Source of the DNA: Gammaproteobacteria bacterium
GTDB lineage: Bacteria > Pseudomonadota > Gammaproteobacteria > Pseudomonadales > Halieaceae
Direction of reading: 5' to 3'
Assembly (NCBI GenBank): GCA_009937065.1
Contig: JAACDF010000159.1
Span: 1 to 39,242, forward strand
DNA: 39,242 nucleotides
Below, piece by piece: positions 5,085 through 24,569 of the stretch (within the stretch, counting starts at the first letter, position 1; the number at the start of each line of letters is the position of its first letter). The notes below the pieces were generated by a model. It did no database searches and was not told the DNA's origin. It saw only the letters and a program-made list of their open reading frames with translations. A program made the translations under genes and the position numbers.

Positions 5085-5750
5085 GTGGCTGATCATCTTC
5101 AAGAAGAAGAGCAGTTAGAGGCAATTTCCCAATGGTGGCAAGAGAATCGCGTATCAGTGATTGCAGCAGTTGTGCTCACTCTCGGGGGCACCATTGGCTG
5201 GTCGCAGTATGAGGACTACATCAGTGAGAATGCGGTGGCTGCCGCAGACGCTTACGACAGTCTTTTGCAGGAGCGGGAGTCGGGAGAGGCGGCAGAGGAG
5301 CTAGCCCTAATCAGTGCTGGACTGCGAGAGTCGCATGCGGGTGAGACCTTTGCAGACTTTGCTTCGCTTCAGGTCGCAGCGGCCGCCGTCGAAGCAGGCA
5401 ATCTGGTGCTGGCCCGTGCCGAACTCGAATCGGTCATGGCGAGTGTGGAATTAGACTCAACTTTGGGTCAGTTGGTCCAGCTGCGACTGGCTCGTGTCAT
5501 GGCAGCGTCCGGTGACGAAGCGGGAGCAGTCGCCATTCTCGTACAGGGGAGTAGTTCTTTTCCTGCTAGTTACGCCCAGGCACTAGGCGATATCCATTTA
5601 GCGGCTGGGCGAGAGGCTGAGGCGTTGCTCGCCTATGAGTCAGCCCAGACCGAATCGTTGGCGCTAGGCGGTCAACTGGGTCTTGTGGATCTTAAAGTGA
5701 GCGGGCTTTCGCTCCGTGATGCGGACGATTCCGTTGAGGATTCACAATAA
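5085..5750 (+). CDS. yfgM: YfgM/UPF0070 family inner-membrane TPR protein
   Basis: A 221-residue bitopic membrane protein with a short acidic cytoplasmic N-terminus (HLQEEEQLEAISQWWQEN), one helix at about residues 24-42 (VSVIAAVVLTLGGTIGW), and a periplasmic TPR-like domain rich in Ala and Glu. In E. coli YfgM sits at the SecYEG translocon with PpiD and hands proteins to periplasmic chaperones. The GTG start has GAGGAG at 5073-5078. Its TAA overlaps the ATG of bamB by one base, so the two are translationally coupled. A link to outer-membrane protein export follows from the neighbour. Confidence 0.87.
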   Translation: MADHLQEEEQLEAISQWWQENRVSVIAAVVLTLGGTIGWSQYEDYISENAVAAADAYDSLLQERESGEAAEELALISAGLRESHAGETFADFASLQVAAAAVEAGNLVLARAELESVMASVELDSTLGQLVQLRLARVMAASGDEAGAVAILVQGSSSFPASYAQALGDIHLAAGREAEALLAYESAQTESLALGGQLGLVDLKVSGLSLRDADDSVEDSQ

Positions 5751-6922
5751 TGAAGTTATGTAGGCTACTGACAACTAGCTTGTTGATGCTACTTATCAGC
5801 GGATGTAGCACGATTCAGGAATGGTTTGACTCCGAGGATGTAGACGTAACTGCGCCTGTCGAGCTCGAGCGAATCGATGCGAAGGTTGCTGTTAAAAAGC
5901 GGTGGTCAACGAAGATCGGTGATGGTCAGGGTGACGGATTCTACAAAATAACGCCCACGTTAATCGATGGGGTACTTTACGTCGCCTCTAGCGACGGCGA
6001 GGTTGCCGCTGTCAGTGCTGCCAACGGTGATCGACTGTGGCGTGTTGAATTGGAACGCCCCTTGTCTGGTGGCGTGTCGTACCATAATGGCAGTCTCTAT
6101 CTCGGGGGAGCTGACGGTTCCGTACTGCAGCTTTCCGCAGATAACGGTACGGTTGAGTGGGAAGCAGCGGTGTCAGGTGAGGTTCTTGCAGCCCCAGCAG
6201 TTTCTGACGATTGGATCATTGTGCAGACCTATGACGGTAAGTTGCTGGGTTTCCCTCCCGGCGCTGACCAGCCCTCTTGGACGTTTACCAGTGATGTACC
6301 AGTCCTTACATTGCGGGGCACCTCAACTCCCATCCTAGTGGGTGGTAATGCTGTCGCCGGGTTTGGCGATGGCAAGGTTGTCGCTGTCGATGTCAATTCT
6401 GGCAATATTTCTTGGGAGGCGCGCATTGGTGTACCGCAAGGTAGTTCCGAGATAGATCGCATCGTCGATGTGGATGGCGCTATGACACAGCAAGGCATTG
6501 AGCTTTTTGTCGCTAGCTATCAGGGGCGCGTCGCAGCGCTGGATAGTCGCACCGGACGTAAACTGTGGCAGCAGAATGTGTCGTCCGTGACCGGCACGCA
6601 CGTGGGCTTCGGAAACGTATATGTGGCGGACGTTGATGGGACGTTAAGCGCCTTTCTGCGTACCGGACAAGGTGTCAGATGGCAAAATATTGAACTTGGT
6701 TATCGAGAATTATCGCGACCGACACCCGTTAGCAGCTATGTAGCGACGGTAGATTTTGAGGGCTATTTGCACCTTCTCTCTCAAGTCGATGGACAAATTG
6801 TTGGTCGAGCCAAGATTGGTGGCGATGCGGCGCGTGCCGACATGATTGCCGACAGTGGACGCCTTATTATTTACGCCGACAATGGCCAATTGCTCGCCTA
6901 TGAGCTAGAGACCCTGGACTAA
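5750..6922 (+). CDS. bamB: Outer-membrane protein assembly factor BamB (lipoprotein)
   Basis: The 390-residue protein carries a lipoprotein signal ending LLISGC, with Cys19 as anchor. It then has PQQ-type beta-propeller repeats recognisable by blades such as DGVLYVASSDGEVAAV, GSLYLGGADGSVLQL and GNVYVADVDGTLSAF. BamB is part of the BAM complex on the periplasmic face of the outer membrane and assists BamA in inserting beta-barrels. Length and gene order (yfgM-bamB-der) are standard. Confidence 0.94.
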   Translation: MKLCRLLTTSLLMLLISGCSTIQEWFDSEDVDVTAPVELERIDAKVAVKKRWSTKIGDGQGDGFYKITPTLIDGVLYVASSDGEVAAVSAANGDRLWRVELERPLSGGVSYHNGSLYLGGADGSVLQLSADNGTVEWEAAVSGEVLAAPAVSDDWIIVQTYDGKLLGFPPGADQPSWTFTSDVPVLTLRGTSTPILVGGNAVAGFGDGKVVAVDVNSGNISWEARIGVPQGSSEIDRIVDVDGAMTQQGIELFVASYQGRVAALDSRTGRKLWQQNVSSVTGTHVGFGNVYVADVDGTLSAFLRTGQGVRWQNIELGYRELSRPTPVSSYVATVDFEGYLHLLSQVDGQIVGRAKIGGDAARADMIADSGRLIIYADNGQLLAYELETLD

Positions 6923-17687: not shown

Positions 17688-18506
17688 TTAGTTTTCACTG
17701 GGGGTTATCAAAAACTTTCTAACCCGCTCTTTTCTCTTGTCTGCATTAAGCTGCTCCTGAAGTCGAACTTCAGTGATATCGCCTGCCAACCGCCTACGGT
17801 CATCAACTTCTGGGGTTGCCGAAAGAAGTTTTAATAAGGGCAAACGCACATGCGACTGATGCCAGAAGCGGATGTTTGATTCGATATCGGTTAACAAATG
17901 CACATGAGCCTGATGACCGTTATTTGTGGTTGTGGATAATGACATGATGGCCTTGAGCTCACCGGTGGCCTCTTCAAGTTTGAGCCAGTCCTTGTCGTTA
18001 TCATGTTTCAGAACGCGTTTTTGTATTTTGTGGAACCGATGCTCTGCGCGATCAATCATGGCGACAGTGATCGCCTCTTCAGAATCCAGTAATGGTAATG
18101 ACTCAAGGTAGCCGAACCACCAGCGTCTTATTCGAACCCATTCGGGCTTCGCCATGAGCTTGTGACACTTATTGACAGGCTTCGCCGACAGCCTCGCGAC
18201 CGCGCCTGCGATTTTGTCGAGATCTGGATCAGCGAGTGACTCTCTCAAAAGGTCGATCGTTCTCAACCAAGCCACACCCTCGCCTAGTTTTTGTTGCAGC
18301 TTCATCCATCGCTGGCGGTGCTTTTTCGCCTCGGGACTATCTAATGTGGCCAACAGGTAGCCAATATCACTGACCCCATAATTGAGTTGCCACAGGGGAG
18401 ACCCGATAAGACTGTCTTTCAGCCACTCTTTGCGTGACTGCTCGAGGCTATCGCTAAGCTCTCTGAGCATCATTTGCTGCGACTTTGGGTGATCAACTTC
18501 TGACAT
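17688..18506 (-). CDS. Hypothetical helical protein, faintly CHAD-like
   Basis: The 272-residue protein is highly charged and predicted alpha-helical, rich in Arg, Lys, Trp and Leu, with no signal peptide or membrane segment. Parts such as RAEHRFHKIQKRVLKHD and WLKLEEATGELKAIMSL recall the paired helices of CHAD domains, which bind polyphosphate with basic residues. The conserved histidines of that domain are mostly not in place, so the match is weak. It stands alone, convergent with the permease gene and divergent from the desaturase gene. The ATG at 18506 is the first good start. Confidence 0.72.
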   Translation of the reverse strand: MSEVDHPKSQQMMLRELSDSLEQSRKEWLKDSLIGSPLWQLNYGVSDIGYLLATLDSPEAKKHRQRWMKLQQKLGEGVAWLRTIDLLRESLADPDLDKIAGAVARLSAKPVNKCHKLMAKPEWVRIRRWWFGYLESLPLLDSEEAITVAMIDRAEHRFHKIQKRVLKHDNDKDWLKLEEATGELKAIMSLSTTTNNGHQAHVHLLTDIESNIRFWHQSHVRLPLLKLLSATPEVDDRRRLAGDITEVRLQEQLNADKRKERVRKFLITPSEN

Positions 18507-18608: not shown

Positions 18609-19514
18609 ATGAGACCCAATGAGGTGCTTACATCGCAAGAGCGTGAGCTGGTGCTAAAGCGCAGCGACTTCAGAGCCTGGCTCATGGTTGTTAGGACGTG
18701 GGCACTCACTTTTGGGATTCTATGGGTCGTAGCCGCCTTTCCCAGTCTAGTCACCTTGTTATTTGCTTGGCTGGTCCTTCCTGGCCGTCAGTTGAGTCTT
18801 GCTGTTCTGATGCACGAGGCAGGGCACGGCAGTCTATTCAAGACCCGTGTTTACAATCAATGGGTGGGTCAATGGCTCTGCGCATTGCCCACGCTTGGCG
18901 ATCTCCATTCCTACGCTCGAGGCCATTCGGCGCATCACAAATTCGCCGGTAGCCATGATGATCCTGATCTACCGAACTATGGTGCGTATCCAATATCACG
19001 TGAGAGTTTGTACCGTAAGTGGCGCAGAGATCTATTTGGTGCGACAGGACTGAAATTGTTGCGGGCGCTCGCGAGTGGGACATCGAGCCAAATGAGTCGC
19101 GAGACCCATGGGTCCAGTCATTTGGTTGCCAAGCAAATTTTGTCACACCTGATCTTCATTGCCGCGCTTTCAGCCATGGGGATCGGATGGACATGGTTTG
19201 TTTGGATGTTCACGTTTCTCACGTCCTACATGTGGGTTGTTCGGTTGCGTCAGGTGGGAGAACACGCAGCGGTGACGAACCTCTACGATCCTGATGTACG
19301 ACTGAATACACGAACGGTGGAGGCGCCGTTTTGGCAGCGATTCTTACTGGCACCGAATAACGTTAACTACCACATGGAGCATCACTTCATGGCGGGAGTT
19401 CCCTGTTATAACCTGCCCAAACTAAGGACACTACTAAAGCAAAAAGGGGTCCTCGACGAGGTGCCGGTGGTCTCTGGCTATGGGCAGGTATTGAAGATGG
19501 CGGTTGCTCCGTAG
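18609..19514 (+). CDS. Fatty acid desaturase family membrane protein
   Basis: A 301-residue membrane di-iron enzyme of the fatty-acid-desaturase superfamily. The three histidine boxes are HEAGH (residues 69-73), HSAHH (106-110) and HMEHH (about 257-261). Hydrophobic segments lie around residues 28-60 and 160-205. Such enzymes desaturate, hydroxylate or ketolate lipids or carotenoids in the membrane. The substrate is not decided by the motifs. GAGGAA at 18598-18603 precedes the ATG. It is divergent from the CHAD-like gene. A probable terminator lies 21 bases behind it. Confidence 0.88.
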   Translation: MRPNEVLTSQERELVLKRSDFRAWLMVVRTWALTFGILWVVAAFPSLVTLLFAWLVLPGRQLSLAVLMHEAGHGSLFKTRVYNQWVGQWLCALPTLGDLHSYARGHSAHHKFAGSHDDPDLPNYGAYPISRESLYRKWRRDLFGATGLKLLRALASGTSSQMSRETHGSSHLVAKQILSHLIFIAALSAMGIGWTWFVWMFTFLTSYMWVVRLRQVGEHAAVTNLYDPDVRLNTRTVEAPFWQRFLLAPNNVNYHMEHHFMAGVPCYNLPKLRTLLKQKGVLDEVPVVSGYGQVLKMAVAP

Positions 19515-19583: not shown

Positions 19584-19640
19584 AGCCTCTGAGAGGCTGG
19601 TTAAGTCCCAGAAGGGATTTTCTAAACCTGACCAAGGAGG
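19584..19640 (+). promoter_or_regulatory. Structured leader and very strong Shine-Dalgarno of the small peptide gene
   Basis: Two short hairpins follow each other. The first is AGCCTC-TGA-GAGGCT (19584-19598). The second is AAGTCCC-AGAA-GGGATTT (19603-19620), with one G-T pair and one T beyond it. AAGGAGG (19634-19640) then sits six bases before the ATG and is fully complementary to the 16S rRNA tail. The leader suggests high and possibly controlled expression of the peptide. I could not find a convincing promoter. Confidence 0.5.
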
Positions 19641-19646
19641 GTCTTT

Positions 19647-19904
19647 ATGCGTCATTTCACTCAATCCGTTGTCGTTATTTTTGTATCACTCACCGCATTT
19701 CCCGCGGCAGCTACACCTCCCGATGCCCTTATAAACAACACGTTGTCACTTCCCGCTGAGCTCAATAAGACCATTATTGTTGACGAGGACCTCGGCGAGG
19801 TTAGAGGTCAGCTCTGGCCCTTTATTCTGGGTGTCGTCGCCGTTGACCTCGCCATTCAAACCTACTTTTACGGGGTGTACATGCCCCAAACCCGTGGGCA
19901 CTAA
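19647..19904 (+). CDS. Small exported peptide with double-glycine-leader-like motif
   Basis: The 85-residue product matches no family I know. A Sec signal peptide (SVVVIFVSLTAFPAAA, likely cut after Ala22) is followed by a polar stretch to VDEDLGEVRG (residues 45-54). That stretch resembles the end of a double-glycine leader (pattern L-x-x-x-E-L-x-x-V-x-G), with Arg-Gly in place of Gly-Gly. The remaining 31 residues begin QLWPFILGVVAVDLAI and form one hydrophobic segment with several aromatic residues, ending TRGH. The downstream C39 peptidase is the kind of enzyme that cuts after such leaders. It could instead be a small membrane-anchored protein. The AAGGAGG site supports it as a real gene. 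Confidence 0.75.
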   Translation: MRHFTQSVVVIFVSLTAFPAAATPPDALINNTLSLPAELNKTIIVDEDLGEVRGQLWPFILGVVAVDLAIQTYFYGVYMPQTRGH

Positions 19905-19949
19905 ACCTACAGCGACGAGGGTCAGACCCGAGGGCATTGCCAACACACC

Positions 19950-19973
19950 GCCGCCCTCAGGGCGGCTTGATTT
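19950..19973 (+). terminator. Intercistronic hairpin, possible attenuator
   Basis: GCCGCCC-TCA-GGGCGGC (19950-19966) is a perfect GC-rich seven-base stem with a three-base loop, followed by TTGATTT. It lies 45 bases after the peptide stop and 13 before the next start codon. It could partly stop transcription or protect the upstream mRNA end, so that the peptide is made in excess over the two downstream proteins. The short T-run argues against complete termination. Confidence 0.6.
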
Positions 19974-19985
19974 AGGGAATAGCGT

Positions 19986-20243
19986 ATGACGTTAACAAGA
20001 CCGACGTCCAGACAGACACTGGATGACAAACTCAAAAGAGGGCTTCTCACAAAACAACGTCAACGTCTGTTCTTGTTTGGAATGATTCAGCCATCGCTGA
20101 CTTGGTGCGCCCTTGGCTTATCGTATTTGCTTCTAAAATCGTCACAAGCGAATGATGCTATCTGGTTGAGCGGTATATTAGCGCTCTACGCACTGCAAAT
20201 TATAGCGGTGTGGCATCGGTCCGAGTCTCTCTTGCAACGCTGA
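19986..20243 (+). CDS. Small two-helix membrane protein of the C39 cassette
   Basis: This is an 85-residue protein of unknown family. A basic N-terminus (DDKLKRGLLTKQRQRL) precedes two hydrophobic segments at about residues 32-50 (MIQPSLTWCALGLSYLLL) and 58-75 (AIWLSGILALYALQIIAV), ending WHRSESLLQR. The charge pattern predicts both ends in the cytoplasm. AGGGAA at 19974-19979 serves the ATG. The TGA at 20241-20243 is eight bases before the ATG chosen for the peptidase, so the two are likely cotranslated. It might anchor or assist the peptide or the peptidase; nothing in the sequence proves this. Confidence 0.7.
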   Translation: MTLTRPTSRQTLDDKLKRGLLTKQRQRLFLFGMIQPSLTWCALGLSYLLLKSSQANDAIWLSGILALYALQIIAVWHRSESLLQR

Positions 20244-20251
20244 CCATCCTG

Positions 20252-20821
20252 ATGTTCGTCCAACACTTGGTGTCTTTACATATAAGCCGATTAAGGTCGC
20301 AGCTCCCTCTAATCCTCATTGTCATTGCCCTTTTTGGCCAGGTGCATCAAACATCGGCAGCCCCCGCACATCCAGTTTTAGAGCCCGTGATAAGACAAAC
20401 ATCGCTCACAGATTGCGGTCTCGCTGCGCTCGCCATGCTCCTGAGAGACAAGGCCTTGATACGGTCATCGGTAGCGACCTTGGATAACTTAGCCGCTGTC
20501 CTTATTGACCCTAAGACCCAGCGTCATAGGCGAGAGGGCTACTCGGTTAGCGAGTTGCAAACGCTTACCAGTGCATTCGGCTACTTACTAAAGGCTCAGA
20601 AGCTAACCCTCAAGGAGTTCTATGCAAAATCGTTTCCCGTAATGGTATGGATTGATCTTGGCGATGGAGGTCACTTCACGCTGGTGGAGAAAGTGACCGC
20701 CACATCTGTATCGCTAGCAGACCCGACCCGCGGGCGGCTGACGATTGATTATCAGACATGGCGGGAGCTATGGCTTGAGAGAACCACAGGCATAGCATTT
20801 GTGTTGGAACGACCTCTCTAG
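20252..20821 (+). CDS. Stand-alone secreted C39 (bacteriocin-leader-type) cysteine peptidase
   Basis: A 189-residue protein with a signal peptide (h-region PLILIVIALFG, likely cut after QTSAA). The C39 papain-like domain follows: Gln49 and Cys55 in RQTSLTDCGLAALAM (the Q-x5-C spacing of the family), His141 in GGHFTLV, and Asp157 in SLADPTRGR. All catalytic residues are present. C39 domains usually sit at the N-terminus of ABC exporters and cut double-glycine leaders in the cytoplasm. This one has no ABC part and should act outside the inner membrane, like the C39-type FapD of the Fap amyloid system. The frame opens at a GTG at 20210, inside the previous gene, but the ATG at 20252 gives a better signal peptide. 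Confidence 0.86.
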   Translation: MFVQHLVSLHISRLRSQLPLILIVIALFGQVHQTSAAPAHPVLEPVIRQTSLTDCGLAALAMLLRDKALIRSSVATLDNLAAVLIDPKTQRHRREGYSVSELQTLTSAFGYLLKAQKLTLKEFYAKSFPVMVWIDLGDGGHFTLVEKVTATSVSLADPTRGRLTIDYQTWRELWLERTTGIAFVLERPL

Positions 20822-23760
20822 GTGAGGTCGTAGTGAGTCCAGCCCAGGTTGACGAGCGAATCGCTGGCCGCTGTTTTTGCGTCGGTGAGGATCACCGAGG
20901 TACCAGCATCAGATCTCAAGTAGGTTGACGCGACTCGTTGCAGGTCTTCAACCGTCGTTGAAATGATCGTGTCTCGCAGTTCCCGTTTGTGCTCAGCAGT
21001 TCGGCCATAAAGTTCGTCGTAAAACGCTTTCTTAACCTCACCAGCAGGAGATGCTGGTTTATCAAGGCTCGACATGACGCTGAGGATCGCCTCTTCAAGT
21101 GCGAGCGCGTCGTGATTTGCCGTTAGTAACCAGTCGATGGAGGCATCAAAATCAGAGAGTGTTTCGAGATTACGCGGGTCACGGTATGAGAAAAATCGGA
21201 AAGCGCCCACATTCGCATCATGACTGGCTCCGCCACCGTATGCACCACCTTGTTCTCTGATACTTCGATGCAGGAAGCCGTTTCGCAGGTAGGCACCCAG
21301 TACCGATAGAACCGGCGCGTCCGGATGACCACTGGGTACGGTTGGGTATGCTTTCGCACAGAAGTTGACCTGCGTATTGGCAGCCCAAACCTGATTGTCC
21401 GCGCGGCTTTGTTCTATCAGCGACCAGGCACCCACCGTGTTGTCAGTCGAAAGACGAGCTGCTGCTCCTGATAAGGATCGCATAGCTTCATCGATATGGT
21501 TTGAATCGGCAACTGACAGCAGATTAATCGAGGGCGTTGACAGCACTTGATCTCGAAGAGCCGTAAGCGAGGCACCCAGCGCCTCGACCTCCCCATCATG
21601 GGCTAAACGGTCGTCCATTTGGCGTAATCGCTGGATGCCTTCAAGGCCACTTTGCCGGTGATAAAGTGCGGCAAGGGGACTCATACCGGCGCTAGCCGCT
21701 GTCATCGCCAAGCTATGACCTGCACCGCTGATACTTTGATCTCGGCGAGCTCGCATCTGACTGATGAGCTCTTTAATACGCCCCCCTTCGTGAAATGAGG
21801 CCGATGTCAGAGTGTCGATCATCAATTCCGACTGTTCGGACATACGGTTCGCCAAGGCTTTTGACGACATGACGAGGAACCCGGAAGCCTGATTTACATC
21901 GGTGCGCGACGCTCGAGTCGATACGCTCATACCCAAGCTGCCCACACTGGCTGATTGCCGGTCTTGTACCGCCAGGTAAGAGGCGTCGTTGATGCCCACT
22001 TCTGAGGCCAGCGCACAGAGCAGCGGTAGCTCACTTTGCTCCTCTTCCCGCAGGGTCGGCAGGGCGAGTGCTATTTGCTGGTAAACCAGACCATTCGTCC
22101 CCGCTTTTCCAATGATGTGTCGGGCACCTTTATTCTGAGACTTTGATTCGAGAGCGGGTGTTGAGACATCCTTTGGAATGTCAGCAAGACCTACCTTTGG
22201 CAGGATACTGGCATCGTCCACCTGGTTTTGCCGCTGCTCTAAATCGCGAGCCAGCTGGCGCACATTGGCAAGGGCATCGTCGTCCAGACTCGCACGCATA
22301 TCCGCGAGTCGTTGGGCCTCACGCTCCTTTCTGAGCCGATCTAGGTCGGGGTTTGGCGCCACGACCAAGGTGATGCGGTGGGGGTTATCAAGAACCAGTG
22401 CGTTCAGTCGTGCTTTGATGAAGTTGGGCTCACTCATCTTTTTTCTCAACCGCTCCACAGCCGGACTTAAGTCGAGGGCTGCAACAGCGTCCCCATTGTG
22501 GGTCGCAGCACCCAGTGCGCGAAGCATGAGGTTGAGGCCGTAAGGCATGCCGTCACCCGTAACTTCTCGCTGATGAAGCTCAATTTGGTGCAGAATCGCC
22601 TCAAGACGATCCAAGCTCACGCCTTCCTCAGCGGTTTTGTGGATGACCTCTAACACTTGTGATTCAAAGTCATCTACGCGGCTGTGGTTGCTTCCTTCAA
22701 TGCCACAGCAGAGCACCATTTCTCGCATCGAATCTTCAAGCCCGCACAAGGGGGATGGTGCTGATCCAAGATCATTCGTCTCTAACCATTGCATCAGTGG
22801 TGAGGCGCTATTTTCCATGAGTATGGATGACAATAGCTGGGCCTCCAGCATCGCATCGAGATCTGAACTCTCGCCTAGCTTCCAGCCCATGATTAGGTGT
22901 GTTTTGTTGTCGGTATCCGCGTCCTCGAGCGCATAGTGATGCACAGCGCGTTTGGGCTCATCGAAGGCTTGTTCGAGCGTGACTTCAATGTGCTCCTCGG
23001 AGCGTTCAAATCGGCTCAATGCCTCCCGTTCAAATACGTCATGGTGCTGAGATACTGGGAGATTACCAAAGGTTAACAAAATGGCATTGCTGGGATGATA
23101 GTGACCTTTGTAGAAGGCCATTAGCTGATCGTAGCTGAGATCCGGAATTGTCTCGGGGTCACCGCCGCTGTTGTGGTGGTAAGTGCTGGTGGGAAAAAGT
23201 TCATAGCACAATCGATCCCAGAGGACCGATGAAATCGATGACATCGCTCCTTTCATCTCATTAAACACTACGCCTTTGTACACCAAGGGTGCATCAGCAT
23301 CTTCTGAGGCTAACTCGACACGATGCCCTTCCTGAGCGAAGTCGAGAGGATCTAGGCGAGAGAAGAAAACTGCGTCGAGGTAAACGGAGAGCAGATTGTC
23401 AAAGTCCTTCGGATTTTGAGTGGCGAAGGGATAGGCCGTCCAGTCTGAGCTGGTAAAGGCATTCATGAAGGTATTTAGCGATCGCCTAAGCATCATGAAG
23501 AAGGGGTCCCGCACGGGATACTTTTCGCTACCACAGAGAACCGTGTGTTCAAGTATGTGAGCGACCCCAGTTGAGTCTTCAGGGACTGTTTTCAGGGCCA
23601 CCATAAAGACATTTTCGTCCGAGCTGGTCGCCATATGGAGATGTCTGGCCCCCGTCGCTTTATGAACGTATTCCTGTACTTCCAATCCCAGCGACTCTAT
23701 CGGTACGCGGCGAGTCAGCTCAAAGGCTGGGTGAGTGGATGGCGTTACGACTGCGTTCAT
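20818..23760 (-). CDS. M16C zinc metallopeptidase, presequence-protease-like
   Basis: The 980-residue protein has the inverted zinc motif HILEH (His68, catalytic Glu71, His72) and the third ligand Glu168 in VFNEMKG, at the same distance as in plant and mitochondrial PreP. HTVLCGSEKYPVRDPFF and SSDWTAYPFATQN are typical of the M16C branch, which degrades free peptides inside a closed chamber formed by two halves. No signal peptide is visible, so it probably acts in the cytoplasm. It ends tail to tail with the C39 gene, with a four-base overlap of the coding regions. It lies 14 bases behind the glutaminyl cyclase gene. Confidence 0.92.
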   Translation of the reverse strand: MNAVVTPSTHPAFELTRRVPIESLGLEVQEYVHKATGARHLHMATSSDENVFMVALKTVPEDSTGVAHILEHTVLCGSEKYPVRDPFFMMLRRSLNTFMNAFTSSDWTAYPFATQNPKDFDNLLSVYLDAVFFSRLDPLDFAQEGHRVELASEDADAPLVYKGVVFNEMKGAMSSISSVLWDRLCYELFPTSTYHHNSGGDPETIPDLSYDQLMAFYKGHYHPSNAILLTFGNLPVSQHHDVFEREALSRFERSEEHIEVTLEQAFDEPKRAVHHYALEDADTDNKTHLIMGWKLGESSDLDAMLEAQLLSSILMENSASPLMQWLETNDLGSAPSPLCGLEDSMREMVLCCGIEGSNHSRVDDFESQVLEVIHKTAEEGVSLDRLEAILHQIELHQREVTGDGMPYGLNLMLRALGAATHNGDAVAALDLSPAVERLRKKMSEPNFIKARLNALVLDNPHRITLVVAPNPDLDRLRKEREAQRLADMRASLDDDALANVRQLARDLEQRQNQVDDASILPKVGLADIPKDVSTPALESKSQNKGARHIIGKAGTNGLVYQQIALALPTLREEEQSELPLLCALASEVGINDASYLAVQDRQSASVGSLGMSVSTRASRTDVNQASGFLVMSSKALANRMSEQSELMIDTLTSASFHEGGRIKELISQMRARRDQSISGAGHSLAMTAASAGMSPLAALYHRQSGLEGIQRLRQMDDRLAHDGEVEALGASLTALRDQVLSTPSINLLSVADSNHIDEAMRSLSGAAARLSTDNTVGAWSLIEQSRADNQVWAANTQVNFCAKAYPTVPSGHPDAPVLSVLGAYLRNGFLHRSIREQGGAYGGGASHDANVGAFRFFSYRDPRNLETLSDFDASIDWLLTANHDALALEEAILSVMSSLDKPASPAGEVKKAFYDELYGRTAEHKRELRDTIISTTVEDLQRVASTYLRSDAGTSVILTDAKTAASDSLVNLGWTHYDLT

Positions 23761-23774
23761 GACATTTCCTAAAT

Positions 23775-24569
23775 TTATTGGGTTTTGCGCTCAATGAGCT
23801 CAACGTTGAATAGCGAGGGCCAGCGTTTACCACCCAACCAAATCGCATCAGTCTTTGGATCTACCGCTATGCCATTTAAAACGTCCGTACTGCTTCGGCG
23901 CTCACTGCGAGGAAGTAATCCTCGAAGGTCTATGATACTGGTGATTATGCCCGAAGTGGGGTCTATTCGAACGATCTGATCGGTCAGCCATACATTTGCC
24001 CAGATTTCCCCGTTTATCCATTCGAGTTCATTGAGTCTAGAGACACGCTTGCCGTCGTAAGTCACATTGATGGTCCGCGTCACCGTGTTGTTTTCCCATA
24101 CGGATAACCGATGTGTGCCATCCGAAATCCAGAGTTGGTTACCGTCGCTGGTGATGCCCCAGCCCTCACCACGTAGGCTGAGCGTATCGATAACCTTCAT
24201 CGAATCGGGATCTAAAACGAGTAACTCTTGAGATCGCCAAGTGAGGACATAGATTCGCCCATCAAGCTCAGTAAGGCCCTCCGAAAAATATCGATCAGGC
24301 AGTTGAGTGACCCTTCGATTCTTCAGTGATGGCCAGTCATAGCGAGCAATGAATGATTCTCCATACAAGCCTGAACTCACCCAAAGCGCGTCGTCCCAAA
24401 TCAACAAGCCTTGTGTGAAGTTATTGCGATCGATGTTTCGAGTCTCTTTCACGTGGTAGTCGAATATCACTGGCGGCTCTGCCAGAGCCGCTGGCGCTAA
24501 AGCGAGGAAGGCAAACAAAAAGGCAAACAAAGGGAGCGAGAGGGGACTCAGTGTCGTTATGAGCTTCAT
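23775..24569 (-). CDS. Secreted glutaminyl-peptide cyclotransferase (plant/bacterial QC type)
   Basis: The 264-residue protein has an N-terminal signal peptide (LPLFAFLFAFLALAPAALA). It is built of beta-propeller blades with the motifs NFTQGLLIWDD, YFSEGLTEL, GEGWGITSDG, RLNELEWING and VLNGIAVDPKTD of the Glu_cyclase_2 family. These enzymes turn an N-terminal Gln of peptides and proteins into pyroglutamate, which protects against aminopeptidases. The location should be periplasmic. Its ATG overlaps the mnmC stop by four bases (ATGA), so the two are translationally coupled. An M16 peptidase gene follows. Confidence 0.9.
   Translation of the reverse strand: MKLITTLSPLSLPLFAFLFAFLALAPAALAEPPVIFDYHVKETRNIDRNNFTQGLLIWDDALWVSSGLYGESFIARYDWPSLKNRRVTQLPDRYFSEGLTELDGRIYVLTWRSQELLVLDPDSMKVIDTLSLRGEGWGITSDGNQLWISDGTHRLSVWENNTVTRTINVTYDGKRVSRLNELEWINGEIWANVWLTDQIVRIDPTSGIITSIIDLRGLLPRSERRSSTDVLNGIAVDPKTDAIWLGGKRWPSLFNVELIERKTQ

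Follow-up and report, generated by a model that had tools for sequence, protein, structure and literature searches.

The goal of this analysis was to determine whether a short exported peptide and the free-standing C39 peptidase encoded near it could make up a maturation pathway that operates in the periplasm. The genes lie in a stretch of 39,242 nucleotides (contig JAACDF010000159.1 of assembly GCA_009937065.1; called the window here) from a member of the genus Luminiphilus (Halieaceae). A first-pass annotation of this DNA had noted three small genes in a row on the + strand, and the open reading frames (ORFs) of the window agree with it: the peptide precursor is followed by a two-helix membrane protein and then by the C39 peptidase. 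The core idea of that annotation was that a substrate exported by Sec meets its own C39 enzyme in the periplasm. Conservation of the genes, their linkage, their joint decay and the transfer of the leader to other C39 loci support this idea as far as comparison of sequences reaches, and we consider it quite probable that Sec export, signal peptidase and then periplasmic C39 cleavage mature the peptide.

The three genes and their conservation

The features of the locus are listed below; dN/dS is the ratio of nonsynonymous to synonymous substitution rates.

19634..19640, + strand: Shine-Dalgarno-like AAGGAGG ahead of the peptide gene, read from the sequence
19647..19904, + strand: peptide precursor gene, 85 amino acids; ORF with relatives, dN/dS 0.16
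19647..19715, + strand: predicted Sec signal peptide, residues about 1–23; read from the sequence, dN/dS 0.49
19776..19811, + strand: double-glycine-type leader motif, residues 44–55, IVDEDLGEVRGQ; family profile, leader matrix score 12.3
19812..19901, + strand: predicted mature hydrophobic tail, residues 56–85; alignment A1, dN/dS 0.07
19950..19966, + strand: GC-rich, terminator-like hairpin with a weak T tail, between the peptide and membrane-protein genes
19986..20243, + strand: small two-helix membrane protein with a basic N-terminus, 85 amino acids; ORF with relatives
20252..20821, + strand: free-standing C39 peptidase with its own signal, 189 amino acids; alternative start GTG at 20210
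20396, 20414, 20672 and 20720: C39 catalytic codons for Gln49, Cys55, His141 and Asp157, respectively

The peptide had no match in Pfam, NCBIfam or PHROGs. Its first residues, 1–23, are signal-like as read from the sequence, in agreement with the Sec-type signal of the first-pass annotation. A search with the single sequence matched 33 of 97 genomes (its own genome counted), every one within the genus. With profile A1, relatives were found in 42 of 57 genus genomes, including 16 of the 17 of high quality, and in 63 of 140 family genomes spanning 10 of 28 genera; in an order-wide sample the profile matched 8 of 390 genomes, all of them Halieaceae. A scan of an 84,980-species collection gave 59 pattern matches, of which 35 were confirmed as relatives of the peptide; these were labelled Halieaceae, Luminiphilus, Haliea, Parahaliea or HTCC2080, except for one metagenome-assembled genome labelled Alteromonadaceae. 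Within the genus the gene sits mostly at one syntenic site. Eight residues were invariant in the 18 relatives of alignment A1 (M1, G54, P58, G62, D67, G76, Y78 and P80).

Selection on the peptide was estimated from Nei-Gojobori counts with the Jukes-Cantor correction for six close sequences (the window and L033–L037). The overall dN/dS of 0.16 indicates purifying selection, and because of this selection and the conservation described above the peptide is very likely translated. By segment, the signal peptide evolved fastest (0.49), followed by the leader motif (0.17), the spacer (0.08) and the tail (0.07); the spacer and the tail are the most constrained parts of the peptide.

The third product was assigned to C39 by its match to PF03412 (E 2.4e-17; 63.4 bits against a cut-off of 22). 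No ATP-binding cassette (ABC) domain was found among the Pfam matches of the 189-residue protein, and no ABC gene within the cassette. The best solved-structure match of the C39 profile was a double-glycine protease (E 6.5e-13), and a Foldseek search with the AlphaFold2 model (mean predicted local distance difference test [pLDDT] 86.6, predicted template modelling score 0.75) returned PCAT1 at E 1.6e-8 and the double-glycine protease 6mpz at E 1.8e-7. The only other PF03412 match in the genome of the window lies in a 724-residue frame, the size of an ABC exporter. The longest C39 ORF begins at GTG 20210; the ATG at 20252, which follows the membrane-protein gene after a gap of 8 nucleotides, gives 189 residues with a signal-like N-terminus and is, as judged from these features, the best start. 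With it, the catalytic cysteine is residue 55, as the first-pass annotation had numbered it, and the rest of that description also stands: Gln49, Cys55, His141 and Asp157 are present, with a signal of the protein's own and without an ABC domain. In an alignment of 56 C39 proteins (two further ones, from L064 and L045, were dropped), Cys, His and Asp were kept in all 56 and Gln in 49.

The membrane protein of the window had no match in Pfam, NCBIfam or PHROGs, and those of other genera gave sub-threshold Pfam matches alone. A profile seeded with five members (the window and four of the loci L033–L064) placed the gene between peptide and C39 in 27 of the 31 loci L033–L064 (L045 excluded). A scan by hydropathy and ORF found such an ORF between the two genes in 42 of 57 loci, and in all 18 non-Luminiphilus loci having both peptide and C39. 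The sets found by profile and by hydropathy, with eight members each, matched one another in hhalign (probability 95, E 3.7e-8).

The first-pass annotation had named, as an outcome that would speak against it, peptide homologues that never occur near a C39 gene. That outcome was not obtained: 57 of the 60 loci fetched have a C39 gene downstream of the peptide and on its strand (L045, decayed, among them), and in the three loci lacking one (L053, L057 and L115) the contig ends 426–498 nucleotides past the peptide stop. All 42 genus genomes having the peptide also have a C39 match; G041 has two, apparently parts of a single locus divided between contigs. Five genus genomes have a C39 match and no peptide. 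In two of them (G020, locus L243, and G029, locus L244) the C39 gene is a degenerate remnant and the peptide is gone; in G026 the match is cut by the contig end; and in G021 it lies in an 824-residue frame, again of ABC-exporter size. The fifth, G027, is weighed below. In G018 (L045) both the peptide gene and the C39 gene are disrupted, and no membrane gene was detected. By gene order and conservation, the three genes are a conserved unit of the Halieaceae.

The leader motif at this and other C39 loci

The double-glycine leader consensus has Leu at −12, Ser at −11, Glu at −8, Leu or Met at −7, a hydrophobic residue at −4 and Gly at −2, and a classical C39 site requires Gly, Ala or Ser at −1. 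The set searched for leader windows comprised the window and 59 loci; a pattern extracted them from 56 of these 60 sequences and missed L098, L099, L125 and the window itself. The 45 unique ones were aligned on the invariant Gly. Leu at −12 was present in 27 of them, Ser or Asp at −11 in 30, Glu at −8 in 21, Leu or Met at −7 in 29, and Gly at −2 in all 45. Position −1 was occupied by Arg (14), Gly (11), Glu (7), Lys (6), Gln (6) or Ala (1), and Arg preceded the invariant Gly in 31. The window itself has Ile at −12, Val at −11, Asp at −8, Leu at −7, Gly at −2 and Gln at −1, and its motif, IVDEDLGEVRGQ, scored 12.3 with a leader matrix trained without it. As read from these alignments, the Halieaceae leader is the double-glycine register with a relaxed −1 and a single invariant Gly. 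The first-pass annotation had also named homologues without VRG-Q as an outcome that would speak against it. Taken literally, this outcome was obtained, since Arg and Gln vary and Gly alone is invariant (45/45); the leader pattern around that Gly is kept despite the loss of the literal motif.

The canonical register favors a predicted cut after Gln55, which would make Leu56 the first mature residue. A cut after Gly54 is possible, as it would place the invariant Gly at P1; the first-pass annotation's mature start at Gln55 is thus retained as the alternative, with Leu56 preferred on the canonical register.

One group of loci differs in both enzyme and leader. Ten Luminiphilus loci (L061–L064, L102–L105, L107 and L108) have a literal GG in the leader, and the two-helix gene was not found in them; eight of the ten have a C39 protein without the oxyanion Gln, and L104 and L108 keep it. 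The Gln-less proteins, all from Luminiphilus, are those of L061–L063, L102, L103, L105 and L107 in the alignment and that of L064 by eye. By this comparison, GG leader and Gln loss are a correlated change in enzyme and site. The loss of Gln in this group and the variable −1 residue would also fit a C39 protein that does not cut and serves as a chaperone or scaffold, like the C39-like domains of some type I systems. We consider that role improbable: all 56 aligned proteins keep Cys, His and Asp, and FapD, the C39 peptidase of the Fap system, needs its Cys for secretion (PMC5557850).

The leader rule was then applied to C39 loci outside the cassette, with a matrix trained on Halieaceae peptides only and without any Fap data. 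FilB-like C39 genes (E ≤ 1e-6) were present in 30 of 194 order genomes and 20 of 97 genera, with 41 matches, none of them in the order above the curated cut-off. For the transfer test, 34 loci were chosen solely by FilB similarity. They hold 36 of the 41 matches and represent 26 of the 30 genomes and 19 of the 20 genera; 33 loci came from other families and one (L201) from the window's own. Secreted genes within 1.2 kb on the C39 strand were counted as near and those elsewhere as far, and duplicates were removed. A score of at least 8 was reached by 17 of 66 near genes, stemming from 14 of the 34 loci, vs. 5 of 114 far genes (Fisher p 4.3e-5, Mann-Whitney p 0.0011); these p values are optimistic, because the loci are related and not independent samples, and the calls of signal peptides and genes were crude. 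The contrast may also be understated, because four of the five far genes lie on the C39 strand slightly further off in the same loci; the fifth (L220) is on the opposite strand. With the real matrix, 18 near genes scored above the 95th percentile of the far genes, and none of 200 column-permuted matrices equaled this count (mean 4.6, maximum 17). An initial count based on a loose regular expression gave a blurred contrast (33/87 near vs. 27/251 far in peptide loci; 10/22 vs. 13/68 in independent loci) and was replaced by the matrix test.

The same matrix singled out one site in a Fap operon. In locus L200, FapA, FapB, FapC, FapE and FapF exceed their NCBIfam cut-offs, and the C39 gene is taken as FapD from its position between FapC and FapE. 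When the six Fap proteins were scored, a single site was obtained, in FapE (5134–5904), LKDQELATLRGR, with a score of 18.1; the next best was FapB at 3.3, and none of 300 shuffles of the set attained 18.1. A second FapE (L223, 5649–6509) has the leader LKDQELAQLRGK with a score of 20.4. The leader sits just behind the signal peptide of FapE. FapD acts in the periplasm, and among the Fap proteins FapE alone is fully processed at its N-terminus (PMC5557850). The sections of that report cited here describe the target of FapD as unclear and the Fap proteins as lacking canonical C39 sequences; GG and GA motifs had led its authors to suspect FapE, and those sections name no such site. Another paper, in the part cited, likewise gives the FapD substrate as yet undetermined (PMC6173800). 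Next to one FilB-like C39 gene lies a FilA-like DUF6160 protein (155 bits, below the 220 required for FilA), which has the motif MDDAALSGVTGQ with a score of 12.9. Under the same leader rule, FapD would cut FapE at LRG/R and FilB would cut FilA at VTG/Q.

Other loci combine the leader with different cargo. In L238 (3786–5758), from another family, the genes for a barrel (E 4.9e-42 with profile A3), a 112-residue secreted protein and C39 come in this order; the secreted protein has the leader VLSQEEMQNTEGA, a body rich in Gly, His and Tyr, and a PCGC end. In L230 (2227–6712), from the Halieaceae, barrel and C39 flank a glycine-rich secreted protein of 218 residues with the leader DLSPAEMAATEGD; a membrane-like ORF of 107 residues and a gene that looks hydrolase-like by eye are also present. 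Because the same leader occurs with other cargo in these two loci, it behaves like a portable address. A tandem duplicate C39 cassette was seen in L196 (4988–10370), with repeat proteins rich in Asn, Asp and Ser and two leader-bearing proteins per copy.

Several points weigh against the reading that the exported C39 protein cuts the peptide. Cleavage is predicted here from the sequence, and the −1 residue varies (R, G, E, K, Q or A), unlike the Gly, Ala or Ser of classical sites, so that either the C39 pocket differs or the cut is made one residue earlier. In the Gln-less Luminiphilus group (7 of the 56 aligned proteins and L064), C39 may be inactive or different, because the oxyanion Gln and a detectable membrane gene are lacking. 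The genome G027 (L242) has lost the body of the peptide and the membrane gene by deletion and keeps an intact C39 gene, which counts against a strict dependence of C39 on the peptide. Many FilB-like loci are without a leader-bearing neighbor: such a gene was found in 14 of 34 at a score of at least 8 and in 19 of 34 at a score of at least 4, and the sequences from the extra five (L204, L206, L210, L212 and L218) are not leader-looking. Finally, the published gap in FapE is ~70 residues, and the leader rule removes ~39. The inferred nature of the cleavage and the −1 residue other than Gly could also be taken to mean that the motif is a coincidence and that C39 is a mere neighbor acting on something else. 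We regard this as very improbable, because of the linkage in 10 genera, the joint decay, and the transfer of the leader matrix to other C39 loci and to FapE.

An upstream barrel and the fate of the mature peptide

The first-pass annotation had stated that no Fap genes are present. This is correct for the window, in whose genome no FapF-type barrel was matched by profile A3. In orthologous loci of other Halieaceae genera, a distantly FapF-like barrel is encoded directly upstream of the peptide. Loci were fetched for 19 of the 21 genomes outside the genus that have the peptide, and 18 of them include upstream DNA (L125 has none). In those 18 and in L. syltensis, the gene directly upstream encodes a protein of 244–313 residues; in most cases a signal is visible and the last residue is Phe. 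Of the 140 family genomes, 24 were matched by profile A3. These include 20 of the 21 peptide-bearing genomes outside the genus and three in which no peptide was detected; within the genus, L. syltensis alone was matched. The single non-genus peptide genome without a match (G448) is represented by a short contig. A search of Luminiphilus with profile A5 gave 0 of 57, and this absence is uninformative, since L. syltensis, which has the barrel, was also silent; the absence of the barrel from Luminiphilus therefore rests on A3, which does find L. syltensis.

Kinship to FapF was traced through an intermediate. Directly, A3 matched FapF weakly (best E 0.68). Profile A5, built from five barrels beside FilB- or FapD-like C39 genes of other genomes, matched FapF at E 9.8e-53, and the Halieaceae barrel profile A6 matched A5 with an hhalign probability of 98.5 (E 2.3e-15). 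On the other side of the balance, A6 itself matched FapF chains only, at an E of 0.014 that is weak on its own; the predicted model, with about 12 long strands, was poor (pLDDT 58.5); and a Foldseek search with it gave no match at E ≤ 0.001, FapF not being among the 50 matches listed. The kinship rests on the profiles because the structural model is poor, and we hold with moderate confidence that the upstream protein is distantly kin to FapF. The ancestral cassette probably consisted of barrel, peptide, membrane protein and C39. Because the loci of relatives carry this barrel, the parallel with Fap is closer than first thought.

In the pathway that we infer rather than observe (both cleavages, the exact site, transport through the barrel and the part played by the membrane protein included), the precursor would be exported by Sec and its signal peptide removed by signal peptidase I. 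The exported C39 would read the double-glycine-type leader (hydrophobic at −12, acidic at −8, Leu or Met at −7, hydrophobic or Thr at −4, invariant Gly at −2), and its cut in the periplasm at RGQ|LWPF (or RG|QLWPF) would free a hydrophobic peptide of ~30 residues. The two-helix protein would most likely act as a partner in the inner membrane, either holding the peptide or giving protection from it. Passage through the outer membrane would be provided by the upstream FapF-like barrel in most of the Halieaceae genera that encode the peptide; such export is likely where the barrel is present. Luminiphilus, with the exception of L. syltensis, has no detectable barrel, so that its peptide is probably retained in the envelope or released in another way.

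The tail bears on where the mature peptide would end up. It holds a 19-residue stretch with a mean hydropathy of 1.66, few charges and a central Asp, and tails of the window clade end in a basic C-terminus. From the hydropathy of the stretch and the basic end, the peptide could be a single-pass inner-membrane protein with its N-terminus out, the tail serving as the membrane helix of a small subunit or regulator. This would be compatible with C39 cleavage, removal of the leader merely exposing or releasing the peptide. However, the central Asp is invariant, the crude insertion energy is poor, and the C-terminal Cys pairs found in 18 of 19 non-Luminiphilus peptide loci (14 CxxC, 4 CxxxC) fit an oxidising compartment better than the cytoplasm; we place the single-pass arrangement somewhat on the unlikely side. 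Insertion into a membrane is uncertain in any case, because the tail is moderately hydrophobic and has the central Asp, and this tells against our own account as well. FapC, too, has a C-terminal CxxC (PMC5135000).

For the role of the mature peptide, we tentatively prefer, at slightly less than even confidence, a conserved structural or surface peptide of the envelope over a competitive bacteriocin, because the gene is near-core, sits mostly at one syntenic place, and has a constrained tail and a C-terminal Cys pair. The main rival is a membrane-active peptide like the Naps of Neisseria gonorrhoeae, which would be matured in the same way and act on membranes of the producer or its kin (autolysis or killing), with the two-helix protein as immunity. 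The gene content resembles the gonococcal nap island (PMC11798529), the tail is small and hydrophobic, and the two-helix gene is adjacent. Against this, all but one of the 17 high-quality genus genomes have the peptide, and its syntenic site is mostly the same, whereas the nap island is laterally acquired; the tail is among the slowest-evolving parts of the peptide and carries few charges, whereas Naps are cationic; and the two-helix gene was not found in one group of loci that keep the peptide. A Nap-like function therefore seems unlikely to us, and the envelope peptide is kept as the working preference.

The neighboring genes were also recorded. The cassette is flanked on one side by a fatty-acid-desaturase-type gene (18609–19514, PF00487); a 272-residue protein at 17688–18506, without a Pfam match, is kept beside the desaturase in close relatives of the window. 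On the other flank lies a convergent gene (20818–23760), which from its sequence and length we take to encode an M16-type peptidase. Two genes downstream of the cassette is a glutamine cyclotransferase (23775–24569; PF05096, 256 bits), and similar genes were seen by eye near the locus in L098, L122 and L124. A glutaminyl cyclase as general modifier of an N-terminal Gln55 was considered and rejected, because Gln follows the Gly in just 6 of 45 leader windows. A hairpin scan of 1.5 kb gave 4 terminator-like sites vs. 1.4 expected, and intergenic stems recur by eye in near relatives; the z value in the window was −0.7, which is weak, and we do not claim that the hairpin is an attenuator yielding more peptide than enzyme.

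Comparison with known systems

With PCAT1/ComA exporters and double-glycine bacteriocins, the cassette shares the C39 fold, the catalytic residues and the leader register (L−12, E−8, L−7, G−2). The PCAT exporters cut in the cytoplasm during ABC export, whereas the cassette is without an ABC domain and both partners have signal peptides. Likewise, a classical double-glycine peptide has no Sec signal and is exported by its ABC transporter, whereas the cassette peptide has signal-like residues 1–23.

The Fil operon of Acinetobacter and relatives (FilA/DUF6160, FilB C39 and FilC barrel) also has a free C39 gene beside a Sec-exported leader protein and a barrel-like gene. It differs in its cargo, FilA-type proteins being about 280 residues long and of little-known function, and the C39 protein of the window reaches 24.7 bits against the FilB cut-off of 475. 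The Fap system of Pseudomonas shares with the cassette a Sec-exported cargo, a periplasmic C39 with a signal, the FapF-like barrel of orthologous loci and the leader motif of FapE. In contrast to Fap, the cassette peptide has neither repeats nor an NCBIfam match, no match to FapA, FapB or FapC and no other cargo gene were found, and the cassette consists of a single short hydrophobic cargo with an extra two-helix membrane gene. Its C39 proteins fall far below the FapD cut-off of 330 (window 30.7 bits, Haliea 62.1), and the barrel was not found in the genome of the window.

The nap island of N. gonorrhoeae comprises napP (C39), napF (a FapF homologue), napABC, the immunity-like napI and napH, and its authors' model is periplasmic cleavage (PMC11798529). 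The island encodes peptides of 16–36 residues after a C39 site, a free C39, a FapF homologue and small membrane or immunity-like genes (PMC11798529), and the cassette with its orthologous loci resembles it in this. It differs in that its peptides are cationic; it was also acquired laterally and is phase-variable in part, whereas the cassette is near-core in the genus; the main text on nap names no Sec signal (PMC11798529), whereas that of the cassette peptide is explicit. This comparison is by description: the short peptide and free C39 resemble those of nap, and the barrel is missing in the window and present in relatives. By these comparisons, the cassette is neither a Fap nor a Fil system, and its functioning resembles that of Fap and nap.

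In the literature covered, mainly open full texts without preprints, we found no naming of the cassette, of a leader in FapE or FilA, or of the recognition rule. A minimal cassette of one enzyme and one short substrate gives a rule for periplasmic C39 recognition from sequence, and this rule picks a single site in the Fap operon, in a protein already published as N-terminally processed. The questions of the FapD and FilB substrates become directly testable, a means of finding the cargo of many uncharacterised C39 loci is offered, and a conserved peptide of coastal marine bacteria, of unknown function, is placed in a defined pathway.

Taken over all these systems, the comparison leads us to think it somewhat probable that Gram-negative bacteria have a general route composed of Sec export, leader removal by a free periplasmic C39 and a FapF-like barrel, with a portable double-glycine-type leader behind the Sec signal and interchangeable cargo. 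If so, the hydrophobic 30-mer, the Gly/His/Tyr-rich protein of L238, the glycine-rich protein of L230, FilA and FapE would all be cargo of this route; FapE, cut at LRG/R, would be the substrate of FapD; and the Halieaceae cassette would be the minimal form of the route.

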